Positions 4,551 to 46,784 of a stretch of DNA of 49,653 nt are shown here, piece after piece. Source of the DNA: a virus; IMG/VR virus record IMGVR_UViG_3300020194_001210, positions 1-49,653 of that record. One strand, 5' to 3'. The notes under the pieces were generated by a model that was not told the DNA's origin, did no database searches, and was given only the letters and a program-made list of their open reading frames with translations. The first letter of the stretch is position 1. The number at the start of each line of letters is the position of its first letter. The position numbers were made by a program, and so were the translations under genes.

Positions 4551-4579
4551 ATTATACTATAGTTTAGGTTGAATGTAAA
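4551..4579 (-). promoter_or_regulatory. Early sigma70-like promoter of gene 55
   Basis: Minus strand: TTTACA (4579-4574), a 17-base spacer, TATAAT (4556-4551). The leader to ATG 4515 is about 30 bases. The box is embedded in CTATTTACAT, the same -35 context as the other three early promoters in the window. It diverges from the plus-strand promoter at 4624. Confidence 0.8.
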
Positions 4580-4599: not shown

Positions 4600-4630
4600 T
4601 TTCATAAATATGCATATTAGCTATTTACAT
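4600..4630 (-). repeat. 31-bp promoter-upstream repeat, copy 2 (inverted relative to copy 1)
   Basis: Exact reverse complement of 925-955. Here it forms the upstream flank and -35 box of a plus-strand promoter, whereas copy 1 serves a minus-strand promoter, so element and promoter have moved or been conserved as one unit. Confidence 0.8.
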
Positions 4631-4652
4631 ATCTAGGAAACTGTGTTATAAT
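4624..4652 (+). promoter_or_regulatory. Plus-strand early promoter A, pointing into the uvsW operon end
   Basis: TTTACA (4624-4629), a 17-base spacer, TATAAT (4647-4652): a near-consensus sigma70 promoter on the plus strand, with the conserved 31-bp upstream element. No plus-strand gene follows; transcription would run antisense into the 129-aa gene, uvsW and uvsY. Confidence 0.75.
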
Positions 4653-4690
4653 TAATTGTACCGCCGGGAGCAGGGGATATACTATATTAA
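4653..4690 (+). ncRNA. Candidate leader or small RNA behind promoter A
   Basis: The sequence after the -10 reads GTACCGCCGGGAGCAGGGG then ATATACTA. It aligns with the sequence behind promoter B (26228-26265), sharing the -10 to +6 region, a CCGC start, a G-run and GGGGATATACTA. The longest plus frame here is only 7 codons (ATG 4691). The 3' end is undefined and no U-run terminator is visible. It could be a short or antisense RNA, or a promoter and leader left after gene loss. Confidence 0.35.
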
Positions 4691-5076
4691 TGGAGCTTAG
4701 TTTTACTAGAGTTTAGTTCCATCATAGCCTCAAGCATGTCTAGTTCCTCAGGCGAATCATTATACGAAGGATCTTCTAGTTCTTCAGGATAATCCTTCTG
4801 TTCCAAACACATCCTTACGTATCTTTCCTTAACATCATTGTCACACTCGACGTGTGATACGATATGCATGGGGTTTAGCGCAACGATGTCAGTTTTAGAT
4901 AGTGGTTGCCACTTAGTGAAAACAAATCCTTGAGTCCGCTCCTTCATCATCGTGTGTAGTTCCATAGGGGACTCAAGAATAATCATAGTATTCTCATTAC
5001 CCTTAACCAAAGAAATCAGCTCCTCCCCCGAGGACAACTTGAAATGGCGAATGTTGACGTCGTCTAGCTCATTCAT
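4687..5076 (-). CDS. Conserved T4-like phage protein, possibly Sm-like fold
   Basis: A 129-residue protein with its ATG in a 4-base overlap with the uvsW stop. The first half reads as a compact beta protein (RHFKLSSGEELISLVKGN, then IILESPMEL, then KWQPLSKTDIVALNP), a pattern reminiscent of small Sm-like phage proteins. The last 40 residues are acidic with a probable helix (SPEELDMLEAMMELN). I do not recognise a function. It ends the uvsY-uvsW operon, and the plus-strand early promoter A faces its 3' end only a few bases beyond the stop. Confidence 0.75.
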   Translation of the reverse strand: MNELDDVNIRHFKLSSGEELISLVKGNENTMIILESPMELHTMMKERTQGFVFTKWQPLSKTDIVALNPMHIVSHVECDNDVKERYVRMCLEQKDYPEELEDPSYNDSPEELDMLEAMMELNSSKTKLH

Positions 5077-7688: not shown

Positions 7689-7715
7689 AAAAAGAAGGGG
7701 GCCTAAGCCCCCTTC
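7689..7715 (-). terminator. Intrinsic terminator after gene 23
   Basis: On the minus strand a perfect 9-bp stem (GAAGGGGGC / GCCCCCTTC, 7715-7694) with loop TTAG is followed by TTTTT (7693-7689). It lies 30 bases past the gene 23 stop. Confidence 0.9.
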
Positions 7716-13071: not shown

Positions 13072-13093
13072 CTTTCACCTCTGTGTAGTAACA

Positions 13094-13115
13094 CGGGGAG
13101 GATAGACCCTCCCCG
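13094..13115 (-). promoter_or_regulatory. GC-rich hairpin at the 5' end of the gene 20 leader
   Basis: An 8-bp perfect stem (CGGGGAGG / CCTCCCCG) with a 6-base loop. There is no T-run after it on the minus strand, and it begins about 5 bases after the variant late promoter at 13121. It therefore looks more like a 5' mRNA-protecting or attenuating hairpin than a terminator for gene 19, though weak termination is possible. Confidence 0.6.
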
Positions 13116-13120
13116 CTATA

Positions 13121-13129
13121 CTATTTATC
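13121..13129 (-). promoter_or_regulatory. Variant late promoter GATAAATAG for gene 20
   Basis: One mismatch to TATAAATA, in the short gap after gene 19. The same nonamer occurs in the gap upstream of the 775-aa fibre gene (26188), which supports use as a real variant. Confidence 0.5.
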
Positions 13130-13131
13130 GC

Positions 13132-21421: not shown

Positions 21422-23818
21422 TTAATCTCCTGCTGCTATTCCGCCGCCAATAGCGAACGTTGTGGATTGAGCAGTGTTAAGTTCTTTCTTTACGGTCAGT
21501 CCATCAAATACCCTTCCTCCGGTAACACCACCAACAACAAGTTCTCCAGTCCTAGGATCCTGATATGCATCACCATAATCAGAAGTTAAGAAACATTTAG
21601 CGCCGACTGAAAAGAGAGGCTTTTCTTGGTCATATATAAACTTAATAGTTTTTGGATCAAGGTATCCGCTATGACCTGCTCTGACCATTGAGAGTTTTGC
21701 TCCGGCTGACATTGGGTCTGATGAAGAGTCGTAACCTGCTCTTCTAAAGAATGTTGTGATTGGTCTTTCCCACTCAGATGACCAGTTTATTCCTGATGCC
21801 TGATGCGTATAATGATGAGCTTGGCCATCAATAAAAGATTGGAATCTGTTCTGATGCATCACTACGGCAACGTGAGTCCATTTTCCTTGGCCAACTTTAG
21901 GAAAGTTTGCATCCACAGAAGTATTATTACCAATAAATGAATTGACACTATTTAGATATCCATAATCAATACCTTCCCTTGTGGGGTTATAATTGATTAA
22001 GAATCCATCGTTTGATGCCCTATCGCCGTGACCAATAATTGCACCGCTACCACCTACAGGTATGTACACCCAGAACATCCAGTAAAAGTCGTTAGTTCCC
22101 CAAAGGAAATTATCGTTAAACTCTTGTTCAATCCAAGTGTCAGTATCACCAACTCTTGCACAAGTCATTTCAGCGTTTGTATCAACTGCTTCGATGTGAA
22201 TATTACCAGTGCCTTTAACCTCCATAGGAAACGGTTTCCCTGGTGATCTATCTATGATCGTAAGTTCACGAATTGAAACATTATCTATGGTTGTTGTCGC
22301 CGTGGAGTATAAGTTATTAGATTGTTGGTTGTTCGAGTTTTGTCTCCAGACCGCAACGGAGTTAGGATCATTCGCGCCTAGGTTACTCAAAGAGCCATGA
22401 ATCACAAACTGAGGATCCGCCTGAGTGTTACCTGAACCAGTGTTTGGCTGAACGTGAGTGCTTAAATTTTGATTAACTAGAATGACTGATCTATTACTAC
22501 CTACGCTTTGCTGAAGTGTTGCAATATAATACTTACCATATTCACGTTGTGCCGTAGCGGTTTGCGTCATATAAGGATCACCGTTATTCACTGACGAAGC
22601 AGTTCCGCCAGAGATAGTCCAGTTTGCTCCAGTACTCCAATCGCCTGCGTTTGAAAAGTTGCCACCTGTAACATACTCAGTAGAAGCAGAAAGAGTTGCC
22701 GTCGCTGAACCGTTTATAATGGACATAGAATTTGCGAATGGCATCCACCCAGTCATATAATCATCAGTTAATGTTAACTGGGATCCTTTCGCAAATGTGT
22801 GATCCGTAGGAGATCCTTTTTTGAATAAACACAGCGAAGTACCGTACCACCTGCGGCCAACAATGTCCTTGTACGCGACCATGTTTTTTATTGTGGCCGA
22901 AAATTTACCATAAGCAAGTCCGCTATGACCTAAGTAAGACAATCCATTATATTGAGTGTAAGGAGGAGCTACGGTATACCAGTTTGAGTTGTTATGGCCA
23001 GTGTAGTGAAATACTCCATCTCCATCAAATATACACTGGTACTCAGTATTGCCAGTAAAGCTAACGGCTTTTCCATCGTCGTTAATAATAGCACCGCCAA
23101 GTTGACCAGCGAACCCAAACGTAACCATTGGAAGTCCAGTGTCCTCGTTGATCGGAGCTCCTGGTCTAACGGTTACGGCGACTGACCTAATTCCTTGGCC
23201 AGGGATTTTGCCATAAAATGTATCAAGTGGATTTTGATCCGAGTTATATCTACCTCCTGAACTTTCGGTTAAATCATAGATCTGAGTGTTGTCGTTTCTA
23301 TCACTTAATCTTCCTGGGACTTTATAGAATTGGTTATTAGCATTGCCATATCTAACCATCTCCCAGGCCTTTTCACTAATAAAGTTCCATATGAATCCGC
23401 CAGATTGCGTAGCTTCAGAGTTACCTACTACCACCCATCCGTTTTTACACGCAACTGAGTTTAGAGCCCAGGCAAAAAAGTTTGCTCTGCCTAATCCAAG
23501 TGAGTTAGACGACCAGTTGCTAGCTGCAGCGTATGCTGGGAAAGTAAACTTCATCCATACAGGAAAGTCAGGTTGATCGGCATCATAAATATCAAGCGTG
23601 TTTGATCCACTATTAATACTAAAAATAGCAACTGATGGAAACTCTTTACGGCTACCTCTTGAAGAAGTATTTAGTGGTTCGTTATACCAAGATGTATTAT
23701 GACATCTTTTACGCCATGCTCCGCCATCCGAATCGTTAGTCGTGTCGTAAACGAAAAGGCGTGATGCGCCTTGGTCAAGACCTGTAGTTTTTTCAAATTG
23801 ACTTAAGATAACAGCCAT
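21422..23818 (-). CDS. LamG/lectin-like adhesin, cassette 3
   Basis: A 798-residue protein, paralogue of the 768-aa protein at 34287. The first 300 residues contain RLFVYDTTNDSDGGAWRKR, TSWYNE and RGSRKEFPSVAIF, and appear repetitive and beta-rich. The middle has a carbohydrate-binding-like segment (STEYVTGGNFSNAGDWSTGA). Residues of about 560-720 form a LamG/concanavalin-like domain (FYWMFWVYIPVGGSGAIIGH, WTHVAVVMHQNRFQSFIDGQ). Unlike its paralogue it lacks the N-terminal NQVPxNxDLG adaptor. A TAATG junction couples it to the 775-aa fibre. A host-surface glycan ligand is inferred. Confidence 0.75.
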   Translation of the reverse strand: MAVILSQFEKTTGLDQGASRLFVYDTTNDSDGGAWRKRCHNTSWYNEPLNTSSRGSRKEFPSVAIFSINSGSNTLDIYDADQPDFPVWMKFTFPAYAAASNWSSNSLGLGRANFFAWALNSVACKNGWVVVGNSEATQSGGFIWNFISEKAWEMVRYGNANNQFYKVPGRLSDRNDNTQIYDLTESSGGRYNSDQNPLDTFYGKIPGQGIRSVAVTVRPGAPINEDTGLPMVTFGFAGQLGGAIINDDGKAVSFTGNTEYQCIFDGDGVFHYTGHNNSNWYTVAPPYTQYNGLSYLGHSGLAYGKFSATIKNMVAYKDIVGRRWYGTSLCLFKKGSPTDHTFAKGSQLTLTDDYMTGWMPFANSMSIINGSATATLSASTEYVTGGNFSNAGDWSTGANWTISGGTASSVNNGDPYMTQTATAQREYGKYYIATLQQSVGSNRSVILVNQNLSTHVQPNTGSGNTQADPQFVIHGSLSNLGANDPNSVAVWRQNSNNQQSNNLYSTATTTIDNVSIRELTIIDRSPGKPFPMEVKGTGNIHIEAVDTNAEMTCARVGDTDTWIEQEFNDNFLWGTNDFYWMFWVYIPVGGSGAIIGHGDRASNDGFLINYNPTREGIDYGYLNSVNSFIGNNTSVDANFPKVGQGKWTHVAVVMHQNRFQSFIDGQAHHYTHQASGINWSSEWERPITTFFRRAGYDSSSDPMSAGAKLSMVRAGHSGYLDPKTIKFIYDQEKPLFSVGAKCFLTSDYGDAYQDPRTGELVVGGVTGGRVFDGLTVKKELNTAQSTTFAIGGGIAAGD

Positions 23819-26145
23819 TACTCAATCTCCTCCAGGGCAAAGCGAAACCTTTTGCCGCTCTTATTATTTATGATGTACAAGTGTTCGTCACCCTCCTGAA
23901 TAGTCCAGTTGCCCTTTGTGCCGTCCACAGAATTACCCTCGTCTCTCTTTTCGTTGCTTAAGTTCAAGTCTTGTGTATAGATGTTTTGCCAAGGCTGTGA
24001 TGCTGAGCCCAGGTCTTGATTTGTATCCGCAGGCAGCATATGACCTTCGGCGGCAGTGATTCTAATTTTTTCAGTACCCTTAGGAGCAATGACAATATGA
24101 CCACTTGCAGAGTTAGCACTTCTGAGCCTTGTAGCTGGTGTATTACTATTCGTGGACCCTACTGAAACACCAGCAATTCCTGAGATAGCGACATCCACCG
24201 TAAGAGCAGTGTTCATTTGAACATTACTTGATCCGTCGGCTCTTCCCAATGATACTGAGCTGTTATTTCCTGGCGTAGTACCAGGTGTCGCTGTGATAGT
24301 TACAGCAGCGGTGCCGCTAAGAGATAGGTTTGCATCGGAATCAAGATACAGTTTTTCTTTTTGTTCACTGGTGTGATTATTATCCCTCATAAAGAATGCA
24401 AATGCGCTATTTCCGCTTCTGTTATTCTTTAACGTGATCCTACCTGCAGCACCACCTCCGCTACCAGTACTGCGCATAAGAATAGAAACTTTACCATTCG
24501 TACTAGTGTTTTCTTCATTGAAAAGATAAAGAGCATCAGTACCTACAGAACTAAGTTCTGAAGCTTCAGTCGCTGAGTATTCCGTTGCATCATCAATGAA
24601 AATTGACTCAGTGTTGTACAGATAAAGTTGACCGTTAGACCTAAGAGTCATTTTGGTTGAAGGAACGTTTGTGCTATCACGAGTACCAAACTGCAAAGAA
24701 GCGTTTCTTAAGTTTGACGCCGTCCACGCGTCCTCTTTAACTGCTTTAATGTACGCTGCATCGTTTAGTCCTGATGCGTAACTTCTATAAAGTTGGAATA
24801 GTAAGCCTGCAGAATCACCTGCTGTATCAGCCGCGGCATAATCATTACCAATTGTGACGATATTATTATCAGCAGAATCATCATTAATAAACGATCCTTT
24901 TTCACCAATATAATCCCTGTCGCCATTGATAACAATATTACCAGCCATCTTAAAGTTTGCGGATGCCTCGATATCTCCTGCACCTGCGGTAGCACTTGCG
25001 TATGAAACACCAGCATAAACGTGTCTTACGTTAATACCCTGTGCGCCTGACCCAGAGGTACCATCAGTTCCGTCCAAAAAGCTAACAGGATTATCGTTGG
25101 ATAATGTTACAAAGTATCCACGCTTAGCGCCATCAACAACGACTGTACCGTCCGCTACGCTGTATTTGCTAGCAGTGATACCTTTATTGAAGTCAAACTC
25201 ATCGTCGGTAGAATCATATGTAAGTGTTGCACTTGCGCCGTCAATAGTGATGCCAGCACCGTCTGCTGCAGCTGCATTTGCTGCTCCCGATGCAAGAGTA
25301 ATGTTAAGATCATCAATATCAACAGTCGTAGAGTTAATAGTCGTTGTAGTGCCATCTACCTGTAGGTCACCACGAATCACGACGAGTCCGTTAGTGGCTC
25401 CGTCGGTGTCTGGATCGTGAGGTGCCGGATCGATATAGAAAGTCGCTGGGCCGTTAAGTTCACCCGTCAGCGTAAGATCACCTAGTGTCTTACCGTTTTC
25501 CCAACGAGAGTTTGAACTGTTGTATACGAGTAGGTCCTTGTCCGCGATGGAGGTAATCTCAACATCGTGAACTTCGTCCATGTGATAACCGAGGCGAGAA
25601 GCGCGTACCGCAATAACACCGTTTGATCCATTGTTTGAGATAACGAACGCAATAGGGATGTCTTGATTCGGCGCGGATGGTTTCGTAAGCGTTAACTCAC
25701 CCGCATACGTAGGAGATGCGTATAGTATAGAGCCATCAGTCCACGATTCTCCGCCAGTCGTTAGACCGCCGCTAGCATCGAGTCCACGAATGGAACCAAA
25801 CTGCGAAACGTATCCAAACGCGCCGGTTGCGATATCCTCAGCGGCAACGCCGAGTACGAGTGATTCGTCGATCGTATTGTTTGCGATGTAGGGAGTGGCT
25901 TCGATCTTACCTGAGTTACCGACAGCGCCTGATGCATAAACGACGTCACCCTTAGTGATCGTTGCACCGGCCTTAACGTAAAAGTAATGATCCTGAGCGA
26001 GTCGTGCGTTGACGTTTGCGTCCAGTGTCAGGTCGACCGTCTCGAAGTCGGCGTCGTATGTAAACGTCCCTGATTCTGGATTCGCTGTGTCAGTGGTACC
26101 TACAATGAGGCCCTTCTTGACTCTAAAGTCTGATTGCGTCGCCAT
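23818..26145 (-). CDS. Large tail fibre protein, cassette 3
   Basis: A 775-residue fibre. The first roughly 200 residues are unique to it. Residues of about 227-318 carry the module shared by the large fibres here (GELNGPATFYIDP, VVIRGDLQVDGTTTTINSTT, DGAGITIDGASATLTY). A long beta-rich shaft follows. The C-terminus reads SASQPWQNIYTQDLNLSNEK then GNWTIQEGDEHLYIINNKSG, an ending resembling the last domain of fibre proteins in marine T4-like phages. It is probably a trimeric side or long tail fibre subunit. A variant late promoter lies about 43 bases upstream. Confidence 0.75.
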   Translation of the reverse strand: MATQSDFRVKKGLIVGTTDTANPESGTFTYDADFETVDLTLDANVNARLAQDHYFYVKAGATITKGDVVYASGAVGNSGKIEATPYIANNTIDESLVLGVAAEDIATGAFGYVSQFGSIRGLDASGGLTTGGESWTDGSILYASPTYAGELTLTKPSAPNQDIPIAFVISNNGSNGVIAVRASRLGYHMDEVHDVEITSIADKDLLVYNSSNSRWENGKTLGDLTLTGELNGPATFYIDPAPHDPDTDGATNGLVVIRGDLQVDGTTTTINSTTVDIDDLNITLASGAANAAAADGAGITIDGASATLTYDSTDDEFDFNKGITASKYSVADGTVVVDGAKRGYFVTLSNDNPVSFLDGTDGTSGSGAQGINVRHVYAGVSYASATAGAGDIEASANFKMAGNIVINGDRDYIGEKGSFINDDSADNNIVTIGNDYAAADTAGDSAGLLFQLYRSYASGLNDAAYIKAVKEDAWTASNLRNASLQFGTRDSTNVPSTKMTLRSNGQLYLYNTESIFIDDATEYSATEASELSSVGTDALYLFNEENTSTNGKVSILMRSTGSGGGAAGRITLKNNRSGNSAFAFFMRDNNHTSEQKEKLYLDSDANLSLSGTAAVTITATPGTTPGNNSSVSLGRADGSSNVQMNTALTVDVAISGIAGVSVGSTNSNTPATRLRSANSASGHIVIAPKGTEKIRITAAEGHMLPADTNQDLGSASQPWQNIYTQDLNLSNEKRDEGNSVDGTKGNWTIQEGDEHLYIINNKSGKRFRFALEEIE
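25188..25465 (-). repeat. Shared fibre module, copy in the 775-aa fibre
   Basis: Encodes the GELNGPATFYIDP ... DDEFDFNKG segment. Related DNA lies at about 31745-32045 and 39945-40235, with a shorter relative near 42400-42562; similarity is visible by eye at DNA level over the part encoding ITIDGASATL. Boundaries are approximate. Confidence 0.7.
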
Positions 26146-26187: not shown

Positions 26188-26196
26188 CTATTTATC
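26188..26196 (-). promoter_or_regulatory. Variant late promoter GATAAATAG for the 775-aa fibre gene
   Basis: Same nonamer as at 13121, here about 43 bases before ATG 26145. It abuts the -35 box of the opposing plus-strand early promoter B, so the two promoters diverge from the same spot. Confidence 0.5.
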
Positions 26197-26198
26197 TA

Positions 26199-26227
26199 TT
26201 TACATATCGCAAAAAATATGGTATAAT
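26199..26227 (+). promoter_or_regulatory. Plus-strand early promoter B, pointing into the fibre operon end
   Basis: TTTACA (26199-26204), a 17-base spacer, TATAAT (26222-26227), in the same CTATTTACATATC context as promoter A. No plus-strand gene follows. Confidence 0.75.
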
Positions 26228-26265
26228 TAATAGTCCGCTTGGCGGTGGGGGATATACTACGCAAA
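26228..26265 (+). ncRNA. Candidate leader or small RNA behind promoter B
   Basis: Begins near GTCCGCTTGGCGGTGGGGG followed by ATATACTA. It contains a small hairpin CCGC-TTG-GCGG and the GGGGATATACTA element shared with promoter A's transcript. There is no open frame; stops follow quickly in all three plus frames. It runs antisense to the end of the 117-aa gene. The extent and existence of the RNA are unproven. Confidence 0.35.
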
Positions 26266-26610
26266 TAATCTAACTGGAGTGCTTGGTGGATTATCTCTTC
26301 CATCCTTACCATCAAGAACAAAAGGCCATATTGAATCAGGCATTACGTCTCCATGAAGTAATAGATTAGCGTGATACCCATCAACGTCCTCAAAAATAGG
26401 AATTTCTAATCCATCACTATCAGTGTTTGATCCTATCTGTCTTTGATACGTTCCAATCACATCCAAAGAGTGGCCTGAGGTATAAAACTGTTGTTCTCTT
26501 GGGTTAATTACAGTACCATCATGATCGCTGAGTACTTCTTCAACAAGCCAACCCGCTTCTACGAGAGCTGCCTCAAAAGTTTCTTGATCCGTTGCTTTCA
26601 AAAAGAACAT
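26257..26610 (-). CDS. Small fibre-associated protein, cassette 2
   Basis: A 117-residue acidic protein ending GYHANLLLHGDVMPDSIWPF ... PSTPVRLFA. Small proteins with a similar G-[YWH]-H-x-N-L-x-L core and a P-x-x-P-x-R-[VL]-[WF]-A ending are found next to fibre genes in phages and prophages, from memory; they may assist assembly or attach to the fibre. I do not know a proven function. AGGAG precedes the ATG. It is the last gene of its operon, with promoter B facing its stop codon. Confidence 0.65.
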   Translation of the reverse strand: MFFLKATDQETFEAALVEAGWLVEEVLSDHDGTVINPREQQFYTSGHSLDVIGTYQRQIGSNTDSDGLEIPIFEDVDGYHANLLLHGDVMPDSIWPFVLDGKDGRDNPPSTPVRLFA

Positions 26611-44273: not shown

Positions 44274-46784
44274 ATGGCTCGTACCTTTAAGAAACGCGGT
44301 CTACGTCGTGACCTAAACTTTGCGGATATACCCACTCCAGAGACTGCATTAAACAACATGCTTGGGAATATCGCTGCACAAGGTCAAGAAGGCGATAGAT
44401 TTATCAGTCAAGATCTTGATGTTCTACGAGGTCTTCGTAGAACCACTATGACACGTGGCGACTTCTTAAACATCGATGGTGCGGCTCCTACTGTCATTAA
44501 TCCAAACACTGGCCTAGAAGAAACATATCAGCCAATCATTAGTCTTCAAAACAGATTTGATCAAGCACGATTTACTATTGGAGAACCACAGTTCTTTGGC
44601 GGTAATGGACTTACTACAAGATATTTTGAACAAGTCGACACTAACACAGCAACAGCCACAAACGTACCAGCAGCTCTTTCTGGAATATTTGACATCAACG
44701 ACGCAGTTGAGTTTAAGGACGCTGATGGTAATACCGTTGACTCAGAGATATTTTGGGAACAAGGTCAGTACACGTTTATCGGTCAACTTAAGGATGAGCT
44801 GGGTAGTGACCGCGGCGGAATAGAATGGAACGGTTGGTTTAAGCCAACTCGTGCAGGCCGATGGAGATTCTCGGTATCAACCACTGGGCTGTTTTCCTTC
44901 GAGTTTAATACTGGTGCAAATGCAGTATCAGGACCAGGATCAGTTGTTCACGCAAAACTTAGACCAGTCATGCCTATCGGAGTAACCTTGATAAACGGAT
45001 CCGACCAAGCCTTCATACTCCCTCTCTCAGGAGCTCCTTCCACTCAAAACGGAATTGCTACTATACGTCATTTGCTGCGAGGTGATATCATATGGAGTGG
45101 AGCAGATACATCTGGCTCGAGCGACATATCTCAATTTAACGATACTGATAATCTAATCACGGTCAGCGAGATTGACGTGGATGACGCGTCCGGAGTCGGA
45201 AGTTTTACGTTATCAAGTGCATTCACTGGCACTGGTGGTAGTTACACATTGTATGCGGTACATCCATTCGGAGAATCAGGCGACTTTTTTGAGACCTCAG
45301 GAAACCTCTCTGCGTATACTTATTACCCAATCACCGTTAGATACATGTGGGCAAACCCGTCAAGTGGAAACCCTCATTCACTATTAAGTAACGTAACGGA
45401 TCTAAATGTTGACAACGGCGGTGTGTATAATTTTTCTGCTGAATCGAGTCTAGTGAACTCGCTGTCGGTTAACACTACTCCGCCAAACAGTTCTTCTACA
45501 TATATGAACTATAGGTACCTACACGATGAAGATTATGAAAGAACCCCAACTGGGTTAGACGCAGGTGACTTTTATAACTACTATGAGGACAGAGTACCTC
45601 CAGGTGGTACAAGACTGTTCGCGGGATCCGATGGCTCAATTGGTAGTACGACCGAATCAACATACCAAAATGTTTTCACAAAAGGTCAATTGGTTCTGCC
45701 ATACGAACCCCCTAGGGACTGGGAGGATATTGCTTATCAGAAATCCTTATCGTGGAATCAGGGTTCAATCATTCTTACGACAGGAAATACCGATGGAATC
45801 GAGGTCGGAAACGTTGTATTGGCTCAAGGTACAAACACTGGCGATCCTAAGTTTGATTATACCGCAGGTGTTCCAGTTGTTACTGAAATATCAATCAATG
45901 AAGCGGTATTCGTAAGCCTACCTATCGACAGTGTTCATAATAGTTCTGATACTTCTGGTAGTTTCACGTTTACTTTCTTGGATCACAGAGGCCTTAAGGC
46001 CATAGATCTAACAGGATCAACCTGGACATCAAACGGAACACGTGTAAGTAACTTTTCTGGGCCAGGAACCGCGGCAGTAAACGTTGGTGACGTATTGGTT
46101 GCATATGCTAGCCAAACTAATCAATACAACGTAGTGACTGACCTTATAGACGGATCAACGTTTGACGTAAGTCGTGCATTGATTGACCAATCAAGTTTAG
46201 GCCAAGGGGCATCGGTAGATCCAGTAGTTGCGATATATGAAAGAAGCGGTCTTAAGAACGACTCACTTGATACCTATTGTAATGGCGTTTATGGTGCAAC
46301 GACTGTGGGTAATGCATCTAGCGGAGCAACACAGTTAACCATCACTAGTCCAACAATATATGACGGTGAACCAGGTGCAGCTACATTACCGTCATCAGGA
46401 TACTTTATCTTCTTTGGTAATCGTATCCCAGCGGGTACTACTGCTTCGGTTAGTGGATCAACTATTACCTTAAGTGATGAAATCTCCGATGATATTCCTG
46501 CTGACCAAGTAGTTGTATTAGTATCAACAAATGTCAATAAGGATCTTTGTTTTCCACCAACTGATACCTCACCGCCATTCACAGCCACGCAAAACGGTTT
46601 ACAGACTACTTCGTCAAGACCTACGATTGAGATCACCGGTAATGATTCAGAGGTTAAGTTCATTAGATTATTTGTTGAGAACGGAACGGTAAACACTGCT
46701 AGCGCAAACCCTGCCTATGACAGAAAGATTCCAATCAAGGATCTAACTGGCACAACATATAATATATTGGTGGATGCGGTTTAA
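44274..46784 (+). CDS. Structural protein with PA14-like region (836 aa), only plus-strand gene
   Basis: The N-terminus FKKRGLRRDLNFADIPTPET then ALNNMLGNI is basic and resembles a docking segment. Around residues 150-220, GIEWNGWFKPTRAGRWRFSV then STTGLFSFEFN has the pattern of a PA14-type beta barrel, a carbohydrate-binding fold. The rest is beta-rich with no known motif and ends TGTTYNILVDAV. It is probably a tail or baseplate surface protein. It has its own late promoters, while all neighbours run leftward. Its TAA shares three bases with the stop of the converging gene. Confidence 0.72.
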   Translation: MARTFKKRGLRRDLNFADIPTPETALNNMLGNIAAQGQEGDRFISQDLDVLRGLRRTTMTRGDFLNIDGAAPTVINPNTGLEETYQPIISLQNRFDQARFTIGEPQFFGGNGLTTRYFEQVDTNTATATNVPAALSGIFDINDAVEFKDADGNTVDSEIFWEQGQYTFIGQLKDELGSDRGGIEWNGWFKPTRAGRWRFSVSTTGLFSFEFNTGANAVSGPGSVVHAKLRPVMPIGVTLINGSDQAFILPLSGAPSTQNGIATIRHLLRGDIIWSGADTSGSSDISQFNDTDNLITVSEIDVDDASGVGSFTLSSAFTGTGGSYTLYAVHPFGESGDFFETSGNLSAYTYYPITVRYMWANPSSGNPHSLLSNVTDLNVDNGGVYNFSAESSLVNSLSVNTTPPNSSSTYMNYRYLHDEDYERTPTGLDAGDFYNYYEDRVPPGGTRLFAGSDGSIGSTTESTYQNVFTKGQLVLPYEPPRDWEDIAYQKSLSWNQGSIILTTGNTDGIEVGNVVLAQGTNTGDPKFDYTAGVPVVTEISINEAVFVSLPIDSVHNSSDTSGSFTFTFLDHRGLKAIDLTGSTWTSNGTRVSNFSGPGTAAVNVGDVLVAYASQTNQYNVVTDLIDGSTFDVSRALIDQSSLGQGASVDPVVAIYERSGLKNDSLDTYCNGVYGATTVGNASSGATQLTITSPTIYDGEPGAATLPSSGYFIFFGNRIPAGTTASVSGSTITLSDEISDDIPADQVVVLVSTNVNKDLCFPPTDTSPPFTATQNGLQTTSSRPTIEITGNDSEVKFIRLFVENGTVNTASANPAYDRKIPIKDLTGTTYNILVDAV

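Follow-up and report, generated by a model that had tools for sequence, protein, structure and literature searches.

The phage T4 origins oriF and oriG consist of a promoter and an unwinding element, the promoters being MotA middle promoters, and oriE apparently uses an early promoter (PMC3016281). UvsW, a helicase made late in infection, unwinds the R-loops formed at T4 origins and shuts these origins (PMC3016281). In the T4 record, oriF lies beside uvsW and the oriG primer RNA runs opposite to the adjacent tail-fibre gene 34; a G-rich leader is absent at both. At the ColE1 and mitochondrial origins, a transcript runs over a G-rich stretch that favours a persistent hybrid. Priming by a transcript is known for both (PMC3016281). 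Phage-encoded antisense RNA is represented by CfrI, expressed at psbA in the cyanophage S-PM2 (PMC5931967).

The window analysed here, i.e. the whole linear virus record of 49,653 bases, is a fragment of a marine T4-like phage. Its T4-type genes comprise those for gp55, a UvsW-type helicase, tail sheath, portal, and tail tube, together with a large tail-fibre cluster, and its nearest named relative, judged by gp55, is Phage C48C1 of the Kyanoviridae (63% identity). Nearly all the long genes lie on the minus strand, while the two elements described below, A and B, lie on the plus strand (Table 1). The family of orf129 is the T4 GC0139 "methylamine utilization" family, and a C-terminal His directly before the stop is a conserved residue, found in about 40 of 53 orf129-family members (window 4687-5076 and relatives). 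The T4-type late -10 sequence TATAAATA occurs 12 times on the minus strand and four times on the plus strand of the window, in agreement with the strand of the late genes. The sole long plus-strand gene is an 836-aa ORF (44274-46784), with no PHROG match at E 0.001. Two further minus-strand features are a strong hairpin GAAGGGGGCTTAGGCCCCCTTC followed by TTTTT, resembling an intrinsic terminator (7694-7715), and, just upstream of the portal gene (ca. 13090-13130), a late-promoter-like GATAAATAG, after which a GGGGAGGG-TCTATC-CTCCCC stem is possible.

Table 1. Positions, in the window, of elements A and B and of the adjoining genes and motifs
Feature	Position	Strand	Basis
Late sigma factor gp55, 198 aa	3931..4527	-	phrog_234, E 1.4e-52
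Divergent sigma70-type promoter of gp55, TTTACA-17-TATAAT	4551..4579	-	
Promoter A, TTTACA-17-TATAAT (-35 4624-4629, -10 4647-4652)	4624..4652	+	
Leader A, G-rich tract then ATATACTA	4653..4684	+	
orf129, final gene of the uvsW operon; A points antisense into it	4687..5076	-	phrog_471; synteny in cyanophages
UvsW-type helicase, 508 aa	5073..6599	-	phrog_16, E 3e-108; position of the annotated uvsW of cyanophages
Structural/fibre-like gene, 775 aa, located downstream of B (minus strand)	23818..26145	-	
ATAAATA, T4-late-promoter-like motif adjoining the -35 of B, ca. 45 nt upstream of the 775-aa gene	26189..26195	-	motif only
Promoter B, TTTACA (-35 26199-26204), spacer 17, TATAAT (-10 26222-26227), TG just upstream of the -10	26199..26227	+	
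Leader B, 32 nt, G-rich tract then ATATACTA, ending GGGGATATACTA	26228..26259	+	
117-aa gene of the tail-fibre cluster, entered antisense by B	26257..26610	-	phrog_18574 (unknown function)

Judged from their sequences, A and B are two copies of one conserved non-coding element, placed antisense at the stop of a late gene and built of a strong putative sigma70-type (early) promoter, a G-rich polypurine tract at about +10 to +20, and then ATATAC(T/C)A. Both promoters have perfect hexamers, and the two copies share 77% identity in a 69-nt alignment (E 9e-7, within regions of ca. 500 nt). The window has exactly two copies of CTATTTACATATC and two of GGGGATATACTA, at A and B only. Since such short motifs alone are weak evidence (with two mismatches, 13 and 39 of 100 shuffles equal them), an independent sequence-only model, R1, was built without the window, on 43 elements that other phages have upstream of gp55. 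R1 gave 42.0 bits for A (E 3.4e-12) and 40.3 bits for B (E 1.1e-11); the two were its only full-length matches in the 49.7 kb, a third match covering the promoter part alone, at the gp55 promoter. The score of B is the decisive evidence that it is a genuine member of the family. The proposal of the earlier note that B repeats the promoter and leader of A is thus borne out, as is the distance given there, ca. 21.6 kb (the -35 boxes are 21,575 nt apart). A search of viral_contigs with the exact combined A and B pattern, which the note had suggested, returned near-identical contigs of the same phage only. The sequence of B is also present in contig L005, which is the same phage, so that copy adds no evidence of divergence.

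B was formerly placed just beyond the stop of the 117-aa gene. It adjoins that gene and is antisense to it, but the last three nucleotides of its leader (CTA, 26257-26259) are the antisense of the gene's TAG, so that the two overlap by 3 nt. The location of this gene in the tail-fibre cluster was confirmed as well; the fibre function once ascribed to it was not, its family having no proven function, and a search for its relatives returned the same phage only. The longest ORF beginning within 75 nt of B has 28 codons. No convincing terminator-like site was found by A or B on their strand.

The conservation of the A site was followed in gp55 relatives of 62-99% identity, 77 loci of which had enough upstream DNA to be scored. 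A strong promoter diverging from gp55 and directed antisense into the orf129-uvsW operon is present in 74 of them, its -10 lying a median of 34 nt (mostly 28-42) from the sense stop codon; where gp55 is located ca. 300 nt away, the element still lies by the stop codon. Six near relatives share an almost invariant promoter and leader but differ in the flanks and in the end of the overlapped gene. No conserved ORF follows the element in 53 relatives, nor A or B in the window, ATG-TAA cases included. An RTG ca. 32-39 nt after the -10 in many A-type leaders was considered as the start of a leader ORF and rejected; it mirrors the His codon with which the sense protein commonly ends before its stop, and such ORFs are not conserved.

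All nine cyanophages examined (S-P4, Syn9, ACG-2014g, S-PM2, P-HM1, S-SM1, S-RIM2, S-CAM1, and Bellamy) have a promoter at the same place and in the same direction, in most of them with a leader close to AACCNTGTNNGGGTTCA, as compared by eye and by pattern. R1 does not detect the cyanophage gp55 elements, so we infer the homology of the two leader types from their position and partial likeness. The element is a real and conserved non-coding one, apparently undescribed.

The leader is marked by its composition. Base counts reveal a G-rich purine block ca. 15-24 nt downstream of the -10. Stretches of 12 nt with seven or more G are present in the leaders of 92% of 53 elements and in 0% of 81 other perfect-hexamer promoters from the same loci. 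The difference between the RNA:DNA and DNA:DNA free energies over the tract, calculated from published nearest-neighbour values, amounts to -0.41 kcal per step, in favour of RNA:DNA, vs. -0.06 in the controls. The leader is the top hybrid-favourable 14-mer in 24 of 40 loci and is among the top two in 30; A and B are within the best eight such 14-mers of the window, outside the best two. In distant relatives the composition is kept and the exact letters vary, the motif taking such forms as GGATACC and GGTACC. RNA structure is not conserved: the consensus fold of 43 relatives has no pairs, and the 4-bp CCGC-TTG-GCGG stem noted earlier as possible in B is not kept in the family. The B leader folds no better than shuffled sequences (z 0.16), and Rfam 15 has no match in the window at the gathering score. 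A composition kept with varying letters, together with the lack of RNA pairs and of an ORF, fits a role in hybrid stability.

The G tract is followed by TATAC, at a near-fixed distance, in 66% of the elements vs. 4% of the controls, and related leaders are found in both coding and non-coding units. This would suit a promoter-proximal pause or antitermination loading site, in which TATACT, ca. 20 nt into the transcript, would mimic a -10 box and, with the G tract, hold sigma70 RNA polymerase while a phage factor modifies it. Such a site is improbable, however, as no loading factor is known and the motif itself varies.

The reading favoured here, with a probability of roughly 0.4, is that the element is a candidate R-loop-forming start for the priming of early replication. 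A hybrid-forming start is preferred because a strong promoter with no coding capacity behind it is combined with a G-rich block, conserved in composition, where the nascent RNA leaves the polymerase. Host RNA polymerase would leave the promoter early in infection, and the nascent purine-rich RNA would stay paired with the C-rich template; the resulting R-loop would most likely prime leading-strand synthesis before recombination-dependent replication takes over, the role that transcripts have at T4 oriF (ori(uvsY)) and oriG (ori(34)). UvsW, encoded beside A, would later remove the R-loop, and the G-rich tract would replace the A+T-rich unwinding element of T4 as the hybrid-promoting part. A, on the uvsW side, and B, antisense in the tail-fibre cluster, would then be two origins in one genome.

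Similarly to oriG and oriF, the element is predicted to yield a promoter-driven RNA from few sites per genome, oriG being antisense to a late tail-fibre gene and oriF lying by uvsW. Unlike them, it has a sigma70-type early promoter and a G-rich tract, and the stability of the duplex downstream is like that at control promoters, giving no A+T-rich unwinding element beyond the controls. At most, therefore, the element works in the manner of a T4 origin through a different hybrid-promoting feature, and it is not classed as a T4-type R-loop origin. With the ColE1 and mitochondrial origins it shares a predicted transcript across a hybrid-favouring G-rich stretch; it differs in that its tract is only ca. 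12 nt long, lies near the start site, and belongs to a large phage genome. Several findings speak against an origin. Besides the lack of an unwinding element beyond the controls here and of a G tract at T4 oriF and oriG, the elements of C48C1, S-SM1, and S-RIM2 do not coincide with a switch in GC skew, so skew lends this reading no support. The C48C1 leader ranks only sixth for hybrid preference in its 20-kb region and falls outside the eight best sites of its genome. Moreover, the leaders in cyanophages contain less G, appear to be sequence-specific, and are found at the start of some mRNAs as well, and most of the long relatives searched have the A copy only, with no B-like second copy.

Orientation and position are explained equally well by antisense silencing, in which RNA polymerase or an antisense RNA from A and B would enter the uvsW and tail-fibre operons at their 3' ends and block read-through or premature expression until gp55-dependent late transcription. 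This is a tentative alternative, nearly as likely as R-loop priming. In nearly all relatives A lies antisense at a late-operon stop, and this placement recurs at B, by the stop of a gp4-like head gene (contig L301, 19.8 bits), and in a baseplate operon containing a gp25-like gene (L359, 42.1 bits). The late synthesis of UvsW in T4, where it shuts origins (PMC3016281), would agree with such control, and the RNA may extend far, as its strand has no clear terminator. The expression of CfrI (PMC5931967) is a precedent: like it, the RNA predicted here would be a phage-encoded antisense RNA of a T4-like marine phage, but the CfrI locus is that of psbA and a homing endonuclease, in one phage and with no tie to uvsW or gp55. 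Silencing alone leaves unexplained the obligate G-rich tract with ATATAC(T/C)A, as well as the sense occurrence of such leaders upstream of coding genes. Of the earlier proposal of a family of small or antisense RNAs, not due to chance, the family itself, its non-coding nature, the strong promoter, and the antisense relation to late genes stand; a small RNA of under 150 nt is still a prediction, there being neither a convincing terminator on that strand nor a conserved RNA structure.

Further copies of the G-rich element were found in the tail region of one relative (G007, 36.6 bits), in an intergenic early region (L345, L349, and L357, ca. 39-42 bits), and, in sense, ca. 130 nt upstream of an 87-aa ORF (L279, L286, and L308, 43 bits). 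In the last three (L279:3196-3275) the element is followed by CTCCTCCTC, which could pair with the G tract, and the 87-aa ORF begins MINATTLRSIRNADND. That the second copies lie at differing loci speaks for an element acting in cis and against an antisense RNA with a specific target. Weaker R1 matches reaching the leader in four genomes (G043, G037, G049, and G051) proved to be ordinary coding early promoters with Shine-Dalgarno (SD) leaders.

The sense copies before the 87-aa ORF bear on another explanation, by which the sequence is a 5' leader common to one class of early transcription units, serving RNA stability, early expression, or an SD-like function, with A and B as non-coding or decayed members; the tract indeed resembles an over-long SD. 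The coding copies in cyanophages likewise favour a general leader function. Of 80 matches to the cyanophage leader TAGAATAACYNTGTNNNGGTTCA that were analysed, 71 lie antisense at gp55 and nine elsewhere; besides the gp55 site, the leader precedes cpeT, a gnd-like gene, and a small early gene (cpeT and gnd were named from N-terminal sequences read by eye, without a search). In S-SM1 and S-RIM2 the equivalent leader is present three times each, at the gp55-antisense site, before cpeT-like genes, and before a small early gene (GU071094 at 14275, 49015, and 119329; KX349234 at 13411, 48224, and 121045). A TAGAATAACCATGTNNGGGTTCA-type leader is common to these three kinds of sites, which form a cyanophage promoter-leader family. 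The occurrence of the same leader before coding early genes, named by the earlier note as a sign that A and B are relics, is therefore found in part, outside the window's clade (in the cyanophages and in one contig set in sense). Within the clade, ordinary coding early promoters bear a different, A-rich SD leader without the G tract, so A and B are unlike relics of coding leaders there; in G049, for example, A-rich SD leaders accompany the coding early promoters, and the single G-rich element has no ORF of at least 30 aa nearby. As no ORF is kept after the element, and its near-invariance at a non-coding site is unlike that of a relic, the common-leader explanation is rather unlikely.

PeSLs are mobile promoter/stem-loop cassettes that take part in gene shuffling. 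They are cited (PMC4503421) as strong early promoters in T4-type intergenic regions, and A and B similarly put strong early promoters in intergenic gaps. A stem-loop terminator joined to the early promoter, sought as the mark of a PeSL, was not found at A or B, nor was a conserved hairpin, and the main copy, far from being mobile, keeps to a single locus in almost every relative. It is thus very improbable that A and B are PeSL-type cassettes driving gene shuffling.

To return to R-loop priming, the presence of extra copies at different loci points to a cis function. Marine T4-like phages may possibly have an undescribed kind of origin, in which the G-rich initial transcript of an antisense early promoter would nucleate an R-loop, with one copy fixed beside uvsW and gp55 and extra ones, such as B, inside late operons. 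The element is short, strongly conserved, non-coding, and easily mutated, which gives a direct place to look and a candidate function that can be tested directly. If it is an antisense brake instead, it would be a conserved device for the timing of late genes in an abundant group of ocean viruses.
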